64,000 bases of DNA, taken from Isoptericola sp. BMS4. GTDB lineage: Bacteria; Actinomycetota; Actinomycetes; Actinomycetales; Cellulomonadaceae. Every line of letters begins with the position of its first letter. Positions within the stretch are counted from its first letter, which is position 1. The stretch lies in NCBI RefSeq assembly GCF_011634835.1, contig NZ_SIRP01000001.1, positions 372,001-436,000 on the forward strand. Direction: 5' to 3'. Under the pieces are notes generated by a model. It worked only from the letters and a program-made list of their open reading frames with translations, was not told where the DNA came from and made no database searches. The position numbers and the translations under genes were made by a program. Positions 18,768-41,633 of this stretch are shown piece by piece.

Positions 18768-18823
18768 TGTGGGCGCGAGATTGGCGTTATTCGTCGCCGA
18801 ACAGCGCCAATCTCGCGCCCACA
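18768..18823. repeat. Family A palindrome, copy 1 (gcvP-gcvT)
   Basis: A perfect 19-bp inverted repeat starting 6 nt after the gcvP stop: TGTGGGCGCGAGATTGGCG (18768-18786) and its reverse complement (18805-18823). The outer 11 bp (TGTGGGCGCGA) and the flanks GC...AC match the second copy at 41576-41633. It sits inside the operon between gcvP and gcvT, so it cannot be a full terminator unless termination is partial. Confidence 0.85.
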
Positions 18824-26647: not shown

Positions 26648-29600
26648 ATGAGCCGAGCACTGCCACCTGTCAGACGTACGGCGACCGCGGGGCTCGGCGC
26701 CCTGCTGGGTGTCGCCCTCACCGTGCCCGCCGCCGTCGCGGCGCCGGAGGACGACCTGCCGGTCGCCACCGCCGCGGCGGGCACCACCCCGACCACCACC
26801 CTGAGCGACGACGTCGCCGACCTGCCGCTGGACGACGACGGCGCCGCGCTCGTCACCGAGCGCACGGAGCGGCTGGTCGCCCCCGGGCTGGAGCTCACGG
26901 AGTTCGCCCGGATGTCCGCGGACGGCTGGCTCAGCGGCGAGGTGCTCGTCGCGCACCTCGGGGCCGAGGGCGGGCCGCGCGTCGGCTACCTCGGCGCCGA
27001 CGCCGTCGCGGGCAACGCCACCGTGAGCGAGATGGCCGCCGGCGAGGGCGCCGTCGCGGCCGTCAACGGCGACTTCTTCGACATCAACAACTCCGGCGCC
27101 GCGCTCGGCGTGGGCGTGGACGACGGCACCCTGCTCAAGTCCGCGACCCCCGGGCGGGAGAAGGCCGTCGCGTTCGACTCGTCCGGGATGGGCCGCCTCG
27201 CGGAGCTCTTCCTCACCGGCACCGTCACGGTCCCCTCCGGGGACGGCGAGCAGGAGCTCGCCGTCGACGGGCTCAACGTCACCGGCGTCCCCGCCGGCGG
27301 TGTCGCCGTCTACGACGCCGCCTGGGGCGACGTCGCGCGCACCCGCCCGCTCGCCGCGGGGGAGCAGGGTGTCGAGGTGCAGGTCCGCCTCGACGACCCG
27401 CAGGCCACCAGCGGCACGGTCGTCGCCGTCGGCGCGCCCGGCGAGGGCCGCCTGCCCGACGACGTCCGCGCCGTGGTCGCCCGCCCGGGTGCCGCCGCCG
27501 ACGCGCTGTCGACGCTCGCGCCCGGCGACGCGGTGGGCCTGACGTACGGGTTGCGCGACGACGCCGGCGAGGTCGCCACCGCCATCGGCGGCGACCCCGA
27601 CGACTGGCTGCTGGACGACGGCGAGGTCACCACCGCGACCAGCAGCTTCGCCACCACCCGGCACCCGCGCACCGCCATCGGCTTCGACGAGAGCGGCAGC
27701 ACCGCGTACCTCGTCGTCGTGGACGGGCGCCAGGCGCACAGCACCGGCGCGTCGCTGGCCGAGCTCGGCGGCCTGCTGAAGCAGCTCGGCGCCGACGACG
27801 CCCTCAATCTCGACGGCGGCGGCTCGTCCACGATGGTCGCCCGGGTCCCCGGCGACGCGGGCACCAGCGTGCGCAACCAGCCCTCCGACGGCACGGAGCG
27901 TCTCGACGCCAACGCCCTCGGCCTGTTCACCCCCGCGGGCTCGGGCCGGGTGCGCGCCTACGACGTGCGCGCCCAGGTCCCGACCGGAGACGCCCCGGCC
28001 TCCGACGCGCTGCGCGTGTTCCCCGGCCTGCACCGCACCCTCGTGGGCAAGGGGTACGACGAGTCGCGCGCCGCCGTGGGCACCGCGCCCGCGGAGTGGA
28101 CCACGACGGACGCGGCCGTCGCGGAGGTCTCGCGCGGCGACGGCGGCTCGGGCGTCGTCACCGGCATCGAGCCCGGCGACGCCACCGTGCGCGCCGCGAC
28201 CCCGACGGACGACGGCGTCGCCACCGGCACCGCCGACGTCATCGTGCTGGGCGAGCCCGTGCGGCTGAGCGTCCCCGAGCCGGTCGTCACGCTGGCGGAC
28301 GCGGACGCGACCGCGTCGCTCACCGTCGTCGGGCACGACGCCGACGGCTATGCCGCACCCGTCGAGGCGCGCGACGTCGAGGTCACGGGTGGCCAGGGCG
28401 TCGCGACCCTGGAGCCCGCGGCGGACGGCTCGTTCACGGTGTCGGCCCTGGACGGCTCGGGCGCCGCGACGTTCACTCTGACCGCCGGCGACCTGAGCGT
28501 CGACGTGGCCGTCGCCGTCTCCCTGGACGAGAAGGTCGTCGCCGACTTCGCCGACGCCGCCGACTGGACCTCGGCGCACGCCCGCGCCCCGGGGGGCACC
28601 GTCGAGCCCGCCGAGGGTCACGACGGCGCGGCCGGGCTGCGCATGACGTACGACTTCACGCAGTCCACCGCCACCCGCGGGCAGTACGCCGTCGTCCCCG
28701 GCGGCGGCCGCGAGATCCCCGGCCAGCCGCGCGCCGTCACCATGTGGGTGCACGGCGACGGCAACGGTGCCTGGCTGCGGCTGCAGGTGCAGCAGGGCGA
28801 CGGCGTCGTGACCAACCTGGACGGGCCCGAGGTGTCCTGGGAGGGTTGGCGGAAGGTCGAGTTCGCCGTCCCCGAGGGCGTGCAGTACCCGCTGGTGATG
28901 CAGCGGGTGCGGGCCCTGGAGATCCGCGCCGCCGCCCAGTACACGGGCGAGCTGGTGCTCTCCGACGTCCGCGCGCTGGTGCCGCCGGACGTCGAGGTGC
29001 CGGACGCGGCCGACGTCGAGGACCCCGCGGTCGTCGCCGAGGACGCCACCGACGACGCGCCGCTGCGGGTCGCGGTGATGTCCGACGCGCAGTTCGTCGC
29101 CCGTGACCCCGAGTCCGGGGCGGTGCAGGGCGCGCGCGATGCGCTCGCCGAGATCGTCGCCGAGGACCCGGACCTGCTCGTCATCAACGGCGACCTGGTC
29201 GACGAGGCGTCGCCGGCGGACTTCGACCTGGCCCGGCAGGTGCTCGACGAGGGCCTCGCGGACGCCGACTTCCCCTGGTACTACCTGCCGGGCAACCACG
29301 AGGTCCAGGGCGGGCCGATCGAGAACTTCGAGGCGGAGTTCGGCGAGCGTACCCACGTGGTCGACGTGCCCGACCCCACCGGCGAGGGCGGCGCGACGCG
29401 GCTCGTCATGCTCGACTCGTCCGCCGGGCGGCTCGGGGCCGACTTCGCGCAGGTGCGCGCGCTGCGCCAGGCCCTCGACGACGCCGCGGCCGACGACGGC
29501 GTGAGCGGCGTGGTGACGTTCTTCCACCACCCGCTCGACGACCCGCTGCCCACGAAGGCGTCCCAGCTCACGGACCGGGTCGAGGCGGAGACGCTGCGCG

Positions 29601-30718
29601 GCTGGTTCGAGGACTTCCGGGAGAACTCCGGCAAGCCGATCGCGTCGGTCGGGTCCCACGTCGGCGTCTTCCACGCCTCCACCGCGGACGGCGTCCCGTA
29701 CGTCGTCAACGGCAACTCCGGCAAGAGCCCGGCGAGCACGCCCGACGACGGCGGCTTCACCGGCTGGTCGATGGTCGGGATCGACCCCGCCGCCGACGGC
29801 GGCCGTGGCGAGGACGGCTGGTTCGCCTGGGAGGTCAACGCCCGGGCGGAGCAGGTGGCGGTCTCCGGGCCGACGGAGCTCGCCGTCGGGATGTCGGGGC
29901 AGGTCAGCGCCCTGGTCACCCAGGACGACACGCGCGAGGTGCCCGTCGCCTGGCCCGTCTCGTCCCGGTGGGGCGGCGACGGCGTCTTCGTCGGCGACCC
30001 GGGCGACGCGCCGTCAGGCGCCGTGCTCGCGCTGGACCCGCGCACCCGCGAGGCCACCGCCGTCGCGCCGGGCCGGGCGACGGTCGAGGTCGAGGTGAAC
30101 GGCGAGGTCGGCACGCTGGAGGTGCTCGTGCCCGCCGGCGCGCCCGGCGAGGCCCGGATCAGCGACGACAACGGCTGGGACACGGGCCTGCGGGACGGCG
30201 ACTACCGCGTGCTCGTCGACCTGTGGCACGGCGAGAACGCGACCGGCCTGCGGCTGTACGAAGACGGCGAGCTGATCCACACGGAGGAGCTCACGTACGA
30301 CGGGGTCGAGGCGCAGCGCGTCGCGGTGCCGGTCGCCGGCCGGGCGAACGGCGAGTACGTGTACACGTGCGAGCTGGTCAACGCCGCGGGCACCACGCCC
30401 TGCCGGAAGGCGCACACCGTGACCGTCACCGACGCGAACCCGGGCACGCCGGTGCTGTCCCACGACAACCACGACCGGGACGGGGACTACTCCGTCACCA
30501 TGAACAAGTGGTGGGGCACCCAGGCCACGGGCTACGTGCTGTACGAGGACGGCGTCGAGATCGACCGGCAGGAGCTCACCCCCGGCACCGGGGGAGAGGC
30601 GCAGTCCGCCACGACCCTCGTCAGCGGCCGCGAGCCCGGCACGTACACGTACCGGGCCGTGCTGACCAACGACGTCGGGGAGACGCGCAGCAAGGAGCTC
30701 ACCGTGCGGGTCCGGTGA
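26648..30718 (+). CDS. Secreted phosphodiester glycosidase fused to a metallophosphoesterase
   Basis: A 1356-residue exported protein. A signal peptide (about residues 1-31, ending AVAA) precedes a phosphodiester glycosidase (NAGPA) domain marked by VNGDFFDINNSG near 139 and NLDGGGSSTM near 387. Big-type and carbohydrate-binding-like segments follow. A calcineurin-like phosphoesterase begins near 806: MSDAQF, then NGDLVD, GNHEV near 882, FFHHPL and GSHVGVF. The first motif has Gln where His is usual, and the last has GSHV for GHxH. Two related C-terminal repeats (about 1167-1260 and 1270-1356) resemble carbohydrate-binding modules. The natural substrate may be a cell-wall glycopolymer with phosphodiester links; this is inference. 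An isolated gene, with its own promoter. Confidence 0.85.
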   Translation: MSRALPPVRRTATAGLGALLGVALTVPAAVAAPEDDLPVATAAAGTTPTTTLSDDVADLPLDDDGAALVTERTERLVAPGLELTEFARMSADGWLSGEVLVAHLGAEGGPRVGYLGADAVAGNATVSEMAAGEGAVAAVNGDFFDINNSGAALGVGVDDGTLLKSATPGREKAVAFDSSGMGRLAELFLTGTVTVPSGDGEQELAVDGLNVTGVPAGGVAVYDAAWGDVARTRPLAAGEQGVEVQVRLDDPQATSGTVVAVGAPGEGRLPDDVRAVVARPGAAADALSTLAPGDAVGLTYGLRDDAGEVATAIGGDPDDWLLDDGEVTTATSSFATTRHPRTAIGFDESGSTAYLVVVDGRQAHSTGASLAELGGLLKQLGADDALNLDGGGSSTMVARVPGDAGTSVRNQPSDGTERLDANALGLFTPAGSGRVRAYDVRAQVPTGDAPASDALRVFPGLHRTLVGKGYDESRAAVGTAPAEWTTTDAAVAEVSRGDGGSGVVTGIEPGDATVRAATPTDDGVATGTADVIVLGEPVRLSVPEPVVTLADADATASLTVVGHDADGYAAPVEARDVEVTGGQGVATLEPAADGSFTVSALDGSGAATFTLTAGDLSVDVAVAVSLDEKVVADFADAADWTSAHARAPGGTVEPAEGHDGAAGLRMTYDFTQSTATRGQYAVVPGGGREIPGQPRAVTMWVHGDGNGAWLRLQVQQGDGVVTNLDGPEVSWEGWRKVEFAVPEGVQYPLVMQRVRALEIRAAAQYTGELVLSDVRALVPPDVEVPDAADVEDPAVVAEDATDDAPLRVAVMSDAQFVARDPESGAVQGARDALAEIVAEDPDLLVINGDLVDEASPADFDLARQVLDEGLADADFPWYYLPGNHEVQGGPIENFEAEFGERTHVVDVPDPTGEGGATRLVMLDSSAGRLGADFAQVRALRQALDDAAADDGVSGVVTFFHHPLDDPLPTKASQLTDRVEAETLRGWFEDFRENSGKPIASVGSHVGVFHASTADGVPYVVNGNSGKSPASTPDDGGFTGWSMVGIDPAADGGRGEDGWFAWEVNARAEQVAVSGPTELAVGMSGQVSALVTQDDTREVPVAWPVSSRWGGDGVFVGDPGDAPSGAVLALDPRTREATAVAPGRATVEVEVNGEVGTLEVLVPAGAPGEARISDDNGWDTGLRDGDYRVLVDLWHGENATGLRLYEDGELIHTEELTYDGVEAQRVAVPVAGRANGEYVYTCELVNAAGTTPCRKAHTVTVTDANPGTPVLSHDNHDRDGDYSVTMNKWWGTQATGYVLYEDGVEIDRQELTPGTGGEAQSATTLVSGREPGTYTYRAVLTNDVGETRSKELTVRVR

Positions 30719-30727
30719 CGTCTCAGG

Positions 30728-30785
30728 TCGGCAGCCCGTCCCCGGGTCGGCACACCTGTGTGCCGACCCGGGGACGGACTGCCGA
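30728..30785. repeat. Family B palindrome, copy 1
   Basis: A 28-bp inverted repeat with one mismatch, arms 30728-30755 and 30758-30785. The left arm starts TCGGCAGCCCG and ends GGTCGGCACAC. It begins 10 nt after the stop of the phosphodiester glycosidase gene. The outer (CGGCAG) and inner (GGTCGGCA) parts match the copy at 57852-57908. It may act as a terminator or mRNA 3' stabiliser. Confidence 0.8.
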
Positions 30786-30813
30786 TCCGGGCCGGCGGGA
30801 TATCCTCGGAACC

Positions 30814-31035
30814 ATGAGCGACTTCCAGGTCAACCCGCGCGTCAAGTCCGAGCAGTCGGGCGCCGTCTTCGGGCGCGTCCTCGTGGCGTTCGTCCTCTTC
30901 GTCGCGGGCTTCGCCCTGATCGGCGTCGGCTCGTCCGGGGGCAACCCGACCCTTGACCCGTACCTCTTCGTCGGTGGCATCCTGGCGATCGGTCTGGCGT
31001 TCGGCCTGCCGATGGTCGGGGGCTACGAGCGCTGA
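30814..31035 (+). CDS. Small membrane protein of unknown function
   Basis: A 73-residue protein with a charged N terminus (MSDFQVNPRVKSEQSG) and two hydrophobic segments (VLVAFVLFVAGFALIGVG and YLFVGGILAIGLAFGLPMV). I do not recognise the family. There is no Shine-Dalgarno. TATCCT (30801-30806) ends 7 nt before the ATG, so it is probably leaderless. It ends 45 bp before a strong hairpin shared with hsp20. Confidence 0.7.
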   Translation: MSDFQVNPRVKSEQSGAVFGRVLVAFVLFVAGFALIGVGSSGGNPTLDPYLFVGGILAIGLAFGLPMVGGYER

Positions 31036-31080
31036 CGATCCTCGGGGCCGTGGGCCCGCCCACCGCCCGATGACGGGCCG

Positions 31081-31113
31081 CGACCCTCGGCGGGGCTCCC
31101 CCGCCGAGGGTCG
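31081..31113. terminator. Bidirectional hairpin terminator
   Basis: A perfect 15-bp stem (31081-31095 with 31099-31113, CGACCCTCGGCGGGG and its reverse complement) around a CTC loop. It lies between the small membrane-protein gene and the convergent hsp20 gene, so it can serve both. Confidence 0.8.
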
Positions 31114-31125
31114 TGGCGTGCCGGC

Positions 31126-31551
31126 TCAGGTCCCGGCCTCGATCTCCGTCGGCTTCTTGCTGTGGCTGACCTCGATCCGGCGCGGTCGCGCCTCCTCCGC
31201 GACCGGGATGGTCAGCGTCAGGACGCCGTCGTCGTACCCGGCCGAGATCTGGTCGAGGGCGAGACCGCGGCCCAGCGTCAGCTGGCGTGCCATCGTGCCG
31301 GACGAGCGTTCCCGCAGCAGCCACCGTCCCTCGGCGGAGCGGGGCGTCCGCTCGGCGCGGATCGTCAGCGTCCGGTCCTCGCAGGAGACGTCGATGCTGC
31401 CCGGGTCCACCCCCGGGAGGTCGACCGCCAGGACGTAGTGGTCGCCCTCGCGGAACAGGTCCATCGGCATCGGGGGACCGCTCCGCCCGGTCTGCGCCAA
31501 CGAACCGAACAGCCGATCCATCTCCTGGAACGGGTCCCAGTAGGTAGCCAT
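31126..31551 (-). CDS. Hsp20 / alpha-crystallin family small heat-shock protein
   Basis: A 141-residue small heat-shock protein. The N terminus is YWDPFQEMDRLFGSL, and the alpha-crystallin core follows. It contains the conserved A-x-x-x-G-V-L motif as GYDDGVLTLTIPV near the end. It forms oligomers that hold unfolded proteins for refolding by DnaK. ATG 31551 is chosen because GAGGAGGTGG precedes it; the earlier in-frame ATG would lie upstream of it. A CIRCE element lies about 95 bp upstream, so expression is under HrcA control. Confidence 0.93.
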   Translation of the reverse strand: MATYWDPFQEMDRLFGSLAQTGRSGPPMPMDLFREGDHYVLAVDLPGVDPGSIDVSCEDRTLTIRAERTPRSAEGRWLLRERSSGTMARQLTLGRGLALDQISAGYDDGVLTLTIPVAEEARPRRIEVSHSKKPTEIEAGT

Positions 31552-31645
31552 CGCGCACCACCTCCTCGTCACGGGGCCGCGCCCACGGCCCCGACCGCGA
31601 CGGCGCGCCGGTCGGTCCGGCGTCGCCGTGGCTACACCTGAAGAT

Positions 31646-31672
31646 TTAGCACTCTCCAGGCGAGAGTGCCAG
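31646..31672 (-). promoter_or_regulatory. CIRCE element (HrcA operator) upstream of hsp20
   Basis: On the plus strand TTAGCACTC (31646-31654), nine bases, GAGTGCCAG (31664-31672). Read on the coding strand it is CTGGCACTC-N9-GAGTGCTAA, the consensus CIRCE sequence with a spacer of nine. HrcA binding here should keep hsp20 low at normal temperature. It overlaps CTGGCA and CTAAAT-like hexamers that could be the promoter. Confidence 0.9.
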
Positions 31673-31713
31673 ACCTTCCTGATCGCCGTGGGTGAACACG
31701 GCGTGGGTGCTTC

Positions 31714-31802
31714 TCACGCGTCGTCGTCGAGCCGCTCCAGCAGGTCGACGGCCGCGCGGGCGTACTCGTCGATCCACCGGTCGTGGATGCGCTTGATCGG
31801 CA
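31714..31802 (-). pseudogene. C-terminal remnant, possibly of an ArsR-type regulator or its SRPBCC partner
   Basis: The minus-strand reading frame ends PIKRIHDRWIDEYARAAVDLLERLDDDA (about 28 residues), which resembles the C-terminal tail of ArsR-family regulators or the SRPBCC proteins paired with them. The frame upstream of it degenerates into low-complexity Arg/Pro residues, so only the tail survives. The identity is a weak resemblance from memory. Confidence 0.35.
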
Positions 31803-31869
31803 GGGGGCGAGGGCGAGGTGCCGCTCCCGGCCGACCTTGCGGCCGGCGAGCAACTGCGAGGGCTGGACG

Positions 31870-31938
31870 GGCATGCTCGCCGCCATGAAGGCCTGGCGCG
31901 AGCACGGCATCAACCTGCGCGAGGGCTTCCACCGGTAG
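31870..31938 (+). pseudogene. Unidentified C-terminal remnant
   Basis: A plus-strand frame ends GMLAAMKAWREHGINLREGFHR before a TAG at 31936-31938. It looks like the natural end of a protein, but the frame upstream is not gene-like and no family is recognised. Together with the opposite-strand tail it makes 31573-31952 a decayed stretch, apart from the CIRCE element. Confidence 0.3.
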
Positions 31939-31952
31939 CTCGACTGTCCGGT

Positions 31953-32013
31953 GCCGAACATGTGGTTGCTCCGGGATTCGAGCGCCGAATCCCGGAGCAA
32001 CCACATGGTCGGC
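31953..32013. repeat. Family C palindrome, copy 1
   Basis: A 28-bp stem with one mismatch and a 5-nt loop, arms ending at 31953 and 32013. The left arm reads GCCGAACATGTGG, then TTGCTCCGGGATTCG. It lies 33 nt past the stop of the FBP-domain gene. Adjacent on the right (32014-32032) is a further degenerate copy of one arm (GAGCAACCGCATGGTCGGC). The second family member is at 32859-32919. Confidence 0.85.
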
Positions 32014-32045
32014 AGCGAGCAACCGCATGGTCGGCCGGGGCCGGC

Positions 32046-32549
32046 TCAGGCGGTGCGGCGCACCTCGTCGAGGAAGCGCCGGCTACGCTCGCGGAGCGCC
32101 GCGACGCGTCGCTCGACGACGGCGGCACGCGCGTCGTCGTCGTCGACACCGACCTCGGCGTGGGTGGGCCGCCGCCTGGCGTTGCGCGAGCAGCGGAAGT
32201 CGGTGCAGATCAGGGTGCCGATCGTGTCGCCCTTGCGGCCGGCGGGCCCGGCCCGGCGGGCGACGTACAGCTGCACGTCGCGGGTCTCGACGACGTCCTC
32301 GCACCAGGAGCACAGCGCCCGGCTTCGTGGGCCGGTGCGGTCCGAGGCCCGCAGGATGATGCCGACCGGGGCGTCGTCGACCTCCAGGACGACGTAGGCC
32401 GCGAGCGGCTGCTTGCGGTCGCGCCAGCCCAGGTACTCGAGGCGGTCCCAGTCGAGCGAGTCGAGGTCGGGGAGGATCATCCGCTGCCGCTCGCTACGGG
32501 TGGCGTTGACGAGGCTGTCGCGGATCTGCTTGTCGGTGAGGGGGTTCAT
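32046..32549 (-). CDS. FBP-domain protein (FusB/EF-G-binding type)
   Basis: A 167-residue protein with a four-cysteine treble-clef zinc finger: CSWC (Cys80, Cys83) and CTDFRC (Cys115, Cys120). The family motif is GWRDRKQPLAAYVVLEVD ahead of it. The FBP domain is the C-terminal zinc-finger of FusB-type proteins that free EF-G from the ribosome (fusidic acid resistance). Many actinobacterial members are chromosomal with no known resistance role. The ATG at 32549 has only a weak ribosome binding site. A family C palindrome follows its stop. Confidence 0.82.
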   Translation of the reverse strand: MNPLTDKQIRDSLVNATRSERQRMILPDLDSLDWDRLEYLGWRDRKQPLAAYVVLEVDDAPVGIILRASDRTGPRSRALCSWCEDVVETRDVQLYVARRAGPAGRKGDTIGTLICTDFRCSRNARRRPTHAEVGVDDDDARAAVVERRVAALRERSRRFLDEVRRTA

Positions 32550-32858
32550 GGTCCGGCTTTCGGTGAGCAGGGGGTCACCGGGCACGGCACGTCGTGGCGT
32601 CGTGCCGGTGACGGCGGGCAGGGTGGAGCCCCGCGCCGTCGCTCACCGACCGGTCCTGGGACTGGTGTCAGGGTGCGACGGCGCCGGGGCAGGAGGGACT
32701 GCCCGAGCAGGCCTGATGGCCCACCCCGCTCCCCGCGACGCCGGGCATCGCTCTCTCCTCGTGGACTCGCCGGAAAGTTGGTCCGCTCGCGCCTTCCGGG
32801 CGCGACCGGCCGGACCATCGTGACACGAGACCGTCGCCCCGGTCGACGACTTTTCTCC
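32550..32858. other. Intergenic region without a recognisable gene
   Basis: This 309-bp stretch between the FBP gene and the palindrome next to metE has no gene that I can support. Short ORFs on both strands have the composition of shadow frames. The only clear structure is the family C palindrome just to its right. Confidence 0.5.
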
Positions 32859-32919
32859 GCCGAGCATGTGGTTGGTCCGGGATTGAAGACTTCAATCCCG
32901 GACCAACCACATGTTCGGC
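32859..32919. repeat. Family C palindrome, copy 2
   Basis: A 30-bp stem with only a G-T wobble and a single-base loop. The left arm is GCCGAGCATGTGG followed by TTGGTCCGGGATTGAAG. It lies 17 nt past the metE stop on the coding strand. Compared with copy 1 a C-G pair has become G-C, and TTCG has become TTGAAG with matching changes, so base pairing is conserved. Confidence 0.85.
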
Positions 32920-32935
32920 ACCTCGGGGCGGGGCG

Positions 32936-35335
32936 TCAGAGGGTGGCGCGGACCTCGCGGGCGGCGGCGACGAGGTGGGCCAGCGCCGGCTCGACCTCCG
33001 CGTACCGGCGGGTCTTGAGCCCGCAGTCGGGGTTCACCCACACCAGCGACGGGTCGATGGACTTCACCGCGAGCCGCAGCAGCTCGGTCACCTCGTCCGC
33101 GGACGGCACCCGCGGCGAGTGGATGTCGTACACGCCCGGCCCGATGCCGCGCGCGTAGCCGGCGTCGGCCAGCTCCGGCACGATCTCCATGCGGGAGCGC
33201 GCCGCCTCCAGCGACGTCACGTCGGCGTCGAGGCCGTCGATCGCGCCCACGACCTCGCCGAACTCCGAGTAGCACAGGTGGGTGTGGACCTGCGTGGCCG
33301 GCGCGGCGCCCGCCGTCGCCAGGCGGAAGGACGCCACCGACCAGCGCAGGTACTCCTCCTGGTCGTCGCGGCGCAGCGGCAGCAGCTCGCGCAGCGCCGG
33401 CTCGTCCACCTGCACGACGGCGACCCCCGCGGCCTCCAGGTCGGCCACCTCGTCGCGCAGCGCGAGCGCCACCTGGTTCGCCGTGGCGGCGAGCGGCTGG
33501 TCGTCACGCACGAAGGACCACGCCAGGATCGTCACCGGGCCCGTGAGCATGCCCTTGACCGGCTTGTCGGTGAGCGAGGCCGCGTAGCCCGACCACGCGA
33601 TGGTCATCGGCTCGGGCCGCTGCACGTCGCCCCACAGGATCGGCGGGCGCACGCACCGCGACCCGTACGACTGCACCCAGCCGAGCGCCGTCGTCGCGAA
33701 CCCGTCCAGCAGCTCCGCGAAGTACTGCACCATGTCGTTGCGCTCCGGCTCGCCGTGCACCAGCACGTCGAGGCCGAGCTCCTCCTGCAGGCGCACGACG
33801 CGCTCGACCTCGGCGCGCATCGCGGCCGTGTACGCGGCGTCGTCCAGCTCGCCCTTCGCCCACGCCGCCCGGGCGGTGCGGATCTCCGGGGTCTGCGGGA
33901 ACGAGCCGATCGTCGTGGTGGGCAGCGGCGGCAGGGCCAGGCGCGCGCGCTGCGCGTTCACCCGCTCGTCGTGCGCGCCCCGGACGAAGTCGCCGTCGGC
34001 CAGCTCGGCGAGCCGCTCGCGCACGGCCGGCACGACGACGCCCGCCGCGGCGGCCCGGTCAGCCAGCGCGTCGCGCGCCTCGTCGAGCTCCCCGGCGACG
34101 TCGTCGCGGCCCTCGGCGAGCCCGCGGGCGAGCGTCGTGACCTCGCCGACCTTCTGGTCGGCGAAGGCGAGCCAGCGGCGCAGCCGGGGCGTGCGCCCGG
34201 CGCGCTCGGCGGCCGGGCCCTCCCAGGCCTCGTCGTCGGCGTCGTGCGGCACGTGCAGCAGCGACGTGGACGTGCCGACGGCGACCGGCCCGAGCGCGCG
34301 GAGCGACTCCAACGTCTCGAGCTTCGCGTCCAGGTCGGCGCGCCACACGTTGTGCCCGTCGACGACGCCCGCCACCAGCGTCTTCGTCTCCAGCCCCGGC
34401 ACCGGCCCGGCCGGGGCGGCGCCCTTGACCAGGTCGACGGCGACGGCGTCGACGTCGGTCCCGGCCAGCAGCGCGAGACGGTCGGTCGCGCCGGCCCGCA
34501 GGTCGCCGTACGGCGCGGCGAGCAGGATCCGCGGTCGCTCGGGGACCGTGTCGAGGTCGTCGTCCTCGGACGCCGGGGCGAGGTCTGAGGCCAGCGCCCG
34601 GTAGGCGCGCGTGACGGCCTCGTCGAGGACCTCGGGCGCCACGTCGAGCGAGTCGGTGACCAGCGCCGGCTCGTCGAGCTGGACCCACGGGACGCCGACG
34701 GCACCGAGCGCGCGCAGCAGCTCGGCGTACGCCGCGACGACGTCGTCGAGCCGGTCGAGCGGGTGGAAGCCCTCGCCCGCGTCGTCGGCCGCCTTGGACA
34801 GGGCGAGGAACGTCACGGGGCCCACGAGCACCGGGCGCGTCGTGACCCCGGCCTCCTTGGCCTCGGCGTACTCCCGCACGACGCGGTGGTCGGCGAACGA
34901 GACCGGCGTCGTCTCGCTGATCTCGGGGACGAGGTAGTGGTAGTTGGTGTCGAACCACTTGGTCATCTCGAGCGGCGCGTCCTCGCCGCGGCCGCGCGCC
35001 ACGGTGAAGTAGCCGTCCAGGTCGAGGGAGCCGTCGTCGGCGTCGAGGAGGTCGCGGAACCGGGCGGGCACGGCCCCGAGCAGCGCGACGACGTCGAGCA
35101 CCTGGTCGTAGTACGAGAACGAGCCGGGCACGGAGCCGTCCTCGGGGTCCAGCCCGAGCTCGACGAGGCGGCGCACGGTGTCGCGCCGCAGTGTGCCGGC
35201 GGCGACCTCGAGGTCGACGGCGTCGGTGCGGCCGGCCCAGCGGGACTCGACGGCGCGCTTCAGCTCGCGGCGGCGCCCGATACGGGGGTAGCCGAGGACG
35301 GTGCCGCGGGGGAACGCGGCGGTGATGGTGGACAT
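32936..35335 (-). CDS. metE: Cobalamin-independent methionine synthase
   Basis: A 799-residue MetE enzyme that methylates homocysteine with 5-methyl-THF-polyglutamate. The N-terminal domain starts [20 protein letters not shown], and the C-terminal domain holds the zinc site: HLCYSEF near residue 686 and PDCGLKTR near residue 770. AGGAG precedes ATG 35335. It lies 71 bp after metF, in the same operon, and so should share the S-box riboswitch in front of metF. The length is a little above the usual 750-790. Family C palindrome copy 2 follows it. Confidence 0.97.
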
Positions 35336-35406
35336 GAGCACTCCTGAGGTCGGGGTCCCGCCGGCTCCGCGGCCGGTGGCCGGGAGCGCGGGGCGGGGTG
35401 AGGTCG

Positions 35407-36417
35407 TCAGACGGCGGGGACGTCCGGTACCCACGGCCTGCTGGCCAGGCCGGCGTCGGCGGACGGCTCGCCCGCCGGCGCCGCTCCGCCGAGGTGGACA
35501 CCCTCGAGCAGGTCCAGAGCGGGACGGTACTTGTTGAACGTGTACACGTGGATGCCGGGGGCGCCGGCGTCGAGCACGCGCTGGGCGAGCTCCGTGCCGT
35601 ACGCCGTGCCGTAGGCGTGCTGCGCCTCCGGGTCCGGCAGGGCGTCCAGCGCGTCCAGCAGGTGCTGGGGAGCGCGGACGCCCATGAGCTCCTCGACACG
35701 ACGGAGCCGGCGCGGCTCGGTCGTGGGCAGCAGCCCGGCGAGGATGGGGATCGTCACGCCGGCCGCGCGGGCCTCGGCGACGAAGTCGATGTACGAGGTG
35801 GCCTCGTAGAACAGCTGGGTGATGGCGAAGCCCGCCCCGGCCTGCTGCTTCTCCAGCAGGCGCCGCACCTCCTGGGCGCGGGTGGTGCCGGCGTCGGGGT
35901 TGCCGTCGGGGAACGTCGCGACCGCGATGGTCAGGGGGCGGGTCGCGCCGCGCAGCGCCGTGCCGGGGTCGGCCGCGCAGCGGCGCGCCTCGACCTCCCG
36001 CAGCAGCTGCACGAGCTCGATGCTGGAGTGCAGCCCGCCCGGCGGCGGGCGCCAGTCCGGCTGGTCCTTGGGCGGGTCGCCGCGTAGCGCCAGGAAGGAG
36101 CGGGTGCCCGCGTCGAGGAAGTCGTCGATCACGGCCGTGACGTCCTCCCGCGACGCGCCCACGCAGGTCAGGTGCGCCACCGGCAGCACGGGCGTGCCCT
36201 CCAGCAGCCTCGCCACGACGTCGCGCGCGGTCGCCCGGTCGCCGCCGCCCGCACCGTACGTCACCGAGACGAAGTCCGGGTGCGTCGCGACCAGGCGCCG
36301 CGCCGTCTCCCAGAACTTCGGGGCAGCGTCGGGCCGGCGCGGGGGCATCAGCTCGAATGAGACCGTCGGGCGTGCCGGCAGCGCCGGGGTGTGCGGGTGC
36401 GTTGCCTCTGCGACCAT
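35407..36417 (-). CDS. metF: 5,10-Methylenetetrahydrofolate reductase
   Basis: A 336-residue FAD-dependent MTHFR barrel that reduces methylene-THF to methyl-THF, the methyl donor for MetE. Motifs are SFELMPPRR (with the early Glu that protonates), [26 protein letters not shown] and [12 protein letters not shown]. It is the first gene of the operon with metE. The ribosome binding site GGAG is only 9 nt before the ATG and lies inside the 3' strand of the SAM riboswitch helix P1. Confidence 0.95.
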
Positions 36418-41575: not shown

Positions 41576-41633
41576 TGTGAGCGCGATTTCGGGGACTATG
41601 CGGATGCGGAAAGTCCCCGAAATCGCGCCCACA
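41576..41633. repeat. Family A palindrome, copy 2
   Basis: A 22-bp inverted repeat with one mismatch (arms 41576-41597 and 41612-41633; left arm TGTGAGCGCGATTTCGGGG then ACT) around a 14-nt loop. The outer 11 bp (TGTG[G/A]GCGCGA) and the following CAAC match copy 1 at 18768. The inner part is different, so the outer stem is the conserved element. Confidence 0.85.

Follow-up and report, generated by a model that had tools for sequence, protein, structure and literature searches.

REPINs are the closest described counterparts of the elements reported here. Bertels and Rainey (2011; PMC3116915) describe them as conserved inverted 16-mers around a spacer that is defined by length and by the ability to fold into a hairpin, with common compensatory changes. 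A second source (PMC8266576) describes REPs as being processed by RAYT enzymes (TnpAREP), with a GTAG foot of varying importance. The spread of both REPs and REPINs is explained by RAYT transposases. Here we examine two palindromes from a 64,000-nucleotide stretch of the genome of Isoptericola sp. BMS4 (the window). From the sequence comparisons described below, we judge that both probably represent a short mobile DNA element, non-autonomous and REPIN-like in architecture, and we put the chance that this reading is right at roughly 60%.

The window holds six long palindromes, compared with none in block-shuffled windows (three shuffles). The two considered here occupy positions 31953..32013 (copy 1) and 32859..32919 (copy 2), exactly where an earlier note made from the sequence alone had placed them, and neither is assigned to a strand. 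Both are 61-bp palindromic cores; in copy 1, conserved ends enclose a paired interior and a short loop. A C-G pair in copy 1 is G-C in copy 2, and the inner part differs with matching changes on both arms, again as that note had described. The arms are complementary at 94% and 97% of positions in the two copies, and the computed RNA folding energy of both, on either strand, lies 8.4 to 10.8 s.d. below that of shuffled sequences. An Rfam search of window positions 28000-36000 returned 11 matches, all far below the family gathering cut-offs, and a known Rfam RNA family was rejected as the identity of the palindromes given that no match in this region exceeded its cut-off.

Both copies are close to minus-strand stop codons. 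The FBP_C gene (32046..32585, minus strand; Pfam PF16571, a zinc-finger protein) stops 32 nt from copy 1, and metE (32936..35335, minus strand; Pfam PF01717 and PF08267) stops 16 nt from copy 2; each distance is one nucleotide shorter than the 33 and 17 nt given previously. On the other side of copy 1, a plus-strand coding remnant ends in a TAG stop (31936..31938) 14 nt ahead of the palindrome. The remnant (window ~31800-31938) is the leftover 3' end of a plus-strand gene, and the matching sequence in two relatives, G012 and G002, extends further upstream. Plasmid-borne matches to metE are distant, with one at 60-80% identity and 330 below 60%.

Many more copies exist in the source genome (G000, 4.43 Mb). 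A 20-nt arm pattern with at most three mismatches has 79 matches in G000, whereas a reversed control pattern has 0. These matches were grouped into 43 sites in a single register, and the resulting 61-mers were used to build covariance model R1, which gave 94 matches over both strands, or about 47 sites. Among the matches listed, 45 of these sites were analyzed in register; a site at 216148, which has a 60-nt register, was excluded. The search of the whole genome and of related genomes with the stem that the earlier note had called for thus finds about 47 sites in G000, with strong covariation among them, and relatives in other species, so that the window copies are neither the only copies nor the only covarying ones. 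Family C, as this group is called, has a palindromic unit of 60/61 bp, sometimes 70 bp, whose ends (GCCGAACAKG) are conserved. The outer ~15 bases of each arm are conserved (GCCGAACAKGYGGTTG), the interior is variable, and the loop is ~7 nt. The interior is largely genome-specific but retains its pairing. Within G000, 13 of the 43 pattern-defined C sites are located in a 0.2-Mb segment (C1:3935000-4136000), and several of these are among the most degenerate.

The proposal that pairing is kept while the sequence drifts is borne out by the 43-row alignment of G000 sites. In this alignment, 93.4% of cells are paired compared to 87.8% after shuffling, and changes on both sides are observed in 16 of the 27 pairs compared to 7.1; none of 500 shuffles reached the observed values. 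There are 55 doubly changed cells compared to 16.0 in shuffled alignments, again with no shuffle of 500 as high, and sliding the partners by 1-3 columns removes most of the covariation signal. A second set of 48 60-mers from ten other genomes has 322 doubly changed cells, whereas the maximum in 200 shuffles was 122. Two factors govern how these values are to be read. First, related sequences can exceed shuffles in this statistic without any structure, and because the 43 rows are copies of one another, we do not take their covariation as proof of selection at any single site. Second, much of the difference between copies is the spread of variants inside genomes, and therefore the covariation of the two window copies alone proves selection at neither site. 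Covariation among repeated palindromes should thus be treated with caution, as it is not proof of a selected RNA.

Comparison with relatives revealed that orthologous sites can be either filled or empty. At the site of copy 1, G012 and G002 have the same flanks with a short gap that lacks the element; the stop of the remnant gene is in the same place in both species, and no element lies between it and the FBP stop. The same gap in G004 holds an armless element of the 70-bp subtype, and G010 has a related 61-bp type with an arm scored 7/9, as judged by eye. In G006 and G014, palindromes of a different family (family A, see below) are present at this site. At the metE site, palindromes of C type or C-like, with another interior, were found in G012, G007, G004, and G009. 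The G007 and G004 copies at this site are most similar to other copies within their own genomes (for G004, tied with G012), whereas the nearest matches of the G012 copy in the compared set are from G135 and G007; the end filter of this set missed one further G012 copy, one base away. The occurrence of C-type or C-like copies at metE in five species can also be read as an old site that has been overwritten by conversion.

Six further G000 sites (S1 to S6) were compared with up to five relatives. C elements are present at S1 in G011 and G004 and missing in G012, G010, and G002. At S2, C-like sequences occur in G011 and G010 and not in G012 or G002, and G004 does not have the S1-S2 segment. No C element was found at S3 in five relatives. 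At S4, the site is empty in G012, G002, and G010, and G004 has another repeat there; the four relatives with sequence at S5 are all empty; and nothing more than a single arm, in G011, was found at S6. Because sites are filled in some relatives and empty in others, the elements come and go. These presence/absence comparisons are between species of ~80-85% identity, and absence across them could partly be loss. We also observed a palindrome of the form GAGCCTGTCGARACC...GGTYTCGACAGGCTC at sites of G000 C elements in two relatives, near S4 in G004 (locus L186) and near S3 in G011 (locus L183).

The distribution of family C beyond G000 is patchy. R1 matches 13 of the 18 genus genomes at E ≤0.001; counting both strands, G007 has 37 matches, G012 has 24, and G010 has 21. 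Among the same 18 genomes, the inner sequence (at most two mismatches) was found in G000 and once in G010. The end pattern GCCGAACAKG-N25..55-CMTGTTCGGC occurs in 20 of the 221 family genomes and 7 of the 25 genera. Three of these genomes (G020, G123, and G189) are each the sole matching genome of their genus with poor inner pairing, and their matches are probably chance; removing them leaves 17 genomes in 4 genera, three of which are beyond the genus of the source. Outside this genus, G173 has nine copies and G136 has five. An order-level sample of 396 genomes includes 5 with a match, two being G000 and G007. The remaining three lie outside the family. Inner pairing is moderate (9 and 10 of 15) in the two 60-bp copies of G475, and a 69-bp stretch common to G481 and G570 hardly pairs in G481, the one tested. 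In a collection of 84,980 genomes, from which the source and near genomes were possibly left out, the exact arm pattern has four matches, all in unrelated bacteria.

Variants are clustered by genome. Among 101 elements, the fraction whose nearest neighbor is in the same genome is 0.87, compared to 0.24 when labels are shuffled (maximum, 0.35). This is true of all copies from G000, G007, G010, G136, and G173, and it is less uniform in G004 (3/5), G012 (2/6), G002 (0/2), and G139 (0/2). A phage vehicle was considered and rejected, as only one of 16 viral-contig stretches (L242) has a true element, with 25/25 outer pairs compared to 10 to 19 for the others. L242 (IMGVR_UViG_2734481962_000001) is a 4.6-kb contig filed as viral, in which a 60-bp C element lies shortly after a stop codon. 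From a reading of its open reading frames, it probably represents a ribonucleotide reductase operon on a host chromosome that was filed as viral. Titles, abstract openings, and open-access text revealed no such elements in this group, which falls short of proving their absence from print.

We compared family C with known systems. The traits of REPINs given in the original description (PMC3116915) are two conserved inverted ends, a less conserved pairing spacer, compensatory changes, many extragenic copies, and non-autonomy. In family C, inverted ends flank a pairing and compensating spacer, and dispersed copies differ in position between relatives. However, REPINs are tied to RAYT, a Y1 HUH enzyme, and no RAYT was found in the 18 genus genomes examined here. 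Family C also lacks the GTAG tag, has a total length of 60/61 or 70 bp, and has an outer arm beside most G000 copies. Likewise, enterobacterial REP/BIME sequences are dispersed extragenic palindromes, and CGTC REPs are similarly without a known dedicated transposase (PMC3733652). REPs as defined there are 20-40 bp with GTAG or CGTC at one end, whereas family C elements are 60-70 bp and neither tag is enriched. MITEs of DDE transposons are also short and geneless with terminal inverted repeats, but family C is fully palindromic, and its G000 copies show no target-site duplication in a consistent form. A parental transposon sharing these ends was not recognized in G000, where arm matches away from elements number 7 of 78, compared to 12 for the reversed control pattern.

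Several results bear on the identity of the mobilizing enzyme. Y1_Tnp (PF01797, RAYT) was found in 0 of the 18 genus genomes, two of which are less than 90% complete, and the same search was positive in 5 of 14 control genomes, including that of E. coli; a RAYT/Y1 transposase was therefore rejected as the mobilizer. Within 12 nt outside the ends of 101 elements, GTAG occurs 6 times compared to 6.0 expected from shuffles, its complement CTAC occurs 3 times compared to 2.0, and CGTC occurs 6 times compared to 4.8. Direct repeats of 2-9 nt flanking the core of G000 copies match the cross-copy expectation, except for one copy at 3 nt (0.14 expected) and one at 5 nt (0.0 expected). When the armed unit is considered instead, no choice of boundary gives repeats of at least 3 nt in as many as 6 of 34 G000 copies. 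As there is no consistent target-site duplication, the insertion ends are not mapped. With Y1_Tnp, the GTAG/CGTC tags, and a consistent duplication all missing, the family is best termed REPIN-like rather than REPIN. A REPIN-like family with genome-clustered variants, empty orthologous sites, and no detectable Y1 in the genus implies that another mobilizer must exist or have existed.

As the comparisons show, the element comprises two inverted conserved ends of ~15 bp and a paired, drifting interior, and its length is fixed at 60/61 or 70 bp. If the palindromes are mobile, a trans-acting enzyme would recognize the ends and the hairpin, as single-stranded or cruciform DNA, and copy the element via the folded strand; this enzyme is probably not a Y1/RAYT of the classical REPs. 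Most insertions inside genes or promoters would be lost, and copies located after stop codons would persist best. When transcribed, these stop-adjacent copies would fold into a strong hairpin, which may terminate or protect the mRNA as a side effect.

The locations of the copies relative to genes speak to a second explanation, that the palindromes are U-less terminators or mRNA 3'-end hairpins kept by RNA selection, and that their similarity results from gene conversion between terminators. Genes were called with a codon-usage script and are approximate, with Pfam support at selected sites only. By these calls, the neighbors of the 45 G000 copies are tandem at 27, divergent at 12, and convergent at 6. 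A called stop within 60 nt points at the copy in 27 of 45 cases, and 20 of the 39 measured stop distances are 16-22 nt. Copies near stops are also better paired (mean 25.4 vs 23.5 of 27 pairs; Mann-Whitney p=0.012), and the folds are very stable, all of which favors terminators. In other genomes, the placement is more 3'-directed, with 26 convergent, 34 tandem, and 2 divergent among 62 rows and 55 rows near a stop; six of these rows count an element a second time by way of its outer arm, and most of the loci were chosen by good match, which biases pairing and stop proximity upward. The stop proximity and convergent placement in these species suggest a function at gene ends. Intrinsic terminators are likewise GC-rich stem-loops, often 10-25 nt past the stop, and the two window copies form such stable hairpins.

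However, 12 of the 45 G000 copies lie between divergent genes, and seven of these sites have Pfam support on both sides with the element at most 150 nt from both called starts (e.g., Thiamine_BP/CofD and PadR/MFS). No U-tract (at least 6 T in the 12 nt past the hairpin) was found at 33 transcript ends in G000 or 67 elsewhere, which agrees with the lack of a U-run noted earlier for the window copies. In G000, the 12 nt after the hairpin are 42% G and 6% T. Furthermore, a stem maintained for RNA folding is expected to tolerate G·U above A·C. Sense-strand mismatches in the one-sided copies of G000 (n=21) are 7 G·U, 9 A·C, and 22 other, and those in 33 one-sided copies elsewhere are 9, 9, and 22. 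Thus, there is no excess of G·U over A·C (16 vs 18 over 54 one-sided copies, which are small numbers), and an RNA-strand signature of this kind was rejected for both G000 and the other genomes. A terminator also has no need for fixed ends, sharp length classes, or an arm in fixed phase, and would not account for the empty orthologous sites. Family C differs from intrinsic terminators in having conserved sequence and length without a U-tract, in lying between divergent genes, and in being absent at orthologous sites. We therefore agree with the earlier note that a simple intrinsic terminator is an insufficient reading. Its broader suggestion of a selected structure stands insofar as the pairing is kept; selection of an RNA at gene 3' ends is not supported as proposed, given the divergent copies, the G-U counts, and the filled and empty sites. 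A terminator role near stops is possible, but RNA selection as the general explanation is unlikely.

The lack of a strand signature would also be expected if the palindromes were neutral relics, i.e., old palindromes with no present function or movement whose arms stay matched through template switching or hairpin repair between them. The 55 doubly changed cells occur beside 27 one-sided standard pairs and 77 unpaired cells, as arm-from-arm repair would give, and some G000 copies are decaying, with 18-21 of 27 pairs. Such repair would not, however, make new sites, genome-clustered variants, a fixed end motif, or a fixed length. In G000, the pairing continues only weakly beyond the element in a symmetric manner (mean 1.38 vs 1.07 nt), and local outward growth of the palindromes into their flanks was rejected on this basis. 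We consider the relic explanation improbable; the fixed phase of the outer arm, described next, counts in favor of a mobile element.

An extra motif resembling CCGACCATG lies outside the core at position -51, which is 22 nt from the inner arm. Beside copy 1 it reads GCCGACCATGCGGTTGCT on the minus strand, at 32018..32035 and again 22 nt from the inner arm. The earlier note had correctly recognized an additional arm here, although its coordinates (32014-32032) were displaced. Copy 2 has no recognizable outer arm (best match, 5/9 on either side). The arm had been taken for a partly lost third copy, but it is not one: a like motif (at least 7/9) lies beside 34 of the 45 G000 copies, 33 of them at the 22-nt spacing, and is thus a regular component of most copies in this genome. 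By the same 7/9 threshold, it is present on one side of 29 copies, on both sides of 5, and on neither side of 11. Of 39 side matches, 35 are exactly at -51, in 33 copies. This usually one-sided arm gives most G000 copies a polarity, and its orientation is independent of gene orientation. It is less common in other genomes, where 8 of 62 rows have it at the 22-nt spacing; in six further rows, five of them from G007, it appears as an 81/82-nt pairing. One degenerate copy in G000 (L036:4057-4857; C1:3976073-3976873), with 23 of 27 pairs, is located between cofD and the next gene. It is in an open frame with the gene after cofD, and translation from an ATG in the outer arm would lengthen the product by 29 residues upstream of the called start. 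This copy recalls the in-frame palindromes of Rickettsia mentioned in PMC3733652.

The helical spacing of these features would fit double-stranded DNA binding sites for a multimeric protein, such as a nucleoid, partition, or uptake factor, with the ends placed on one face of the DNA by helical register. The outer arm is 21-22 nt from the inner arm, or about two turns; the length classes are ~10 bp apart, or about one turn; and the end motif occurs three times in most G000 copies. A protein that reads sequence would nevertheless not need an interior that drifts yet stays paired. Isolated arms are not enriched in G000 (the 7 of 78, against 12 for the control), and the family is patchy, with 20 of 221 genomes and three of these probably by chance. 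Binding sites of this type are therefore very doubtful in our estimation.

With a paired interior (at least 8 of 12 positions), family C elements are 60 bp (48 elements), 61 bp (36), or 70 bp (7) long. Three end pairs of 81-83 bp also have a paired interior and are consistent with pairing to the outer arm. A further 33 end pairs of 51 to 83 bp have an unpaired interior, include outer-arm pairings and chance matches, and were kept outside the length count. The patterns used to fetch elements permitted 40-70 bp and 45-75 bp, and the model was based on 61-mers. In the family-wide list, the sole other lengths are 69 and 75, both from poorly paired chance matches.

The window also carries about 60-bp palindromes of two other families just after stop codons: family A at 18768-18823 and 41576-41633, and family B at 30728-30785. 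The ends of family A are TTGTGGGCNYGA (TTGTGGGC...), which are unrelated to the C ends, and the family is present in 9 of the 18 genus genomes. Among 75 of 122 matches listed, and with a pattern that permitted 48 to 78 bp, family A lengths are 59 (6 elements), 60 (32), 70 (25), and 71 (12). The six family B elements are 60 or 62 bp by choice of end, with an outer boundary that was drawn with hindsight. Absolute lengths shift by 1-2 bp with the chosen ends, but the ~10-bp step seen in both A and C is unaffected by that choice. Descent by itself accounts for constancy within a family but not for two classes shared between A and C, and the common ~60/~70-bp classes suggest a length ruler.

One extension of the mobile-element reading, which we offer as speculative and rather unlikely, is that these genomes host mobile palindromes copied by machinery that measures DNA length in helical turns, in which case families A, B, and C would all be spread by a single non-Y1 recombinase carrying a built-in ruler. 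This possibility derives from the two classes shared by A and C that are ~10 bp apart (59-61 and 70-71), the 60-62 bp of B, and the C outer arm two turns away. In any case, the common 60/70-bp classes provide a biochemical handle, with the end motif, the spacing, and the hairpin being separable. The window also carries a CIRCE-like inverted repeat at ~31645-31671 (TTAGCACTCTC...GAGAGTGC), upstream of an HSP20 gene (31126-31551).
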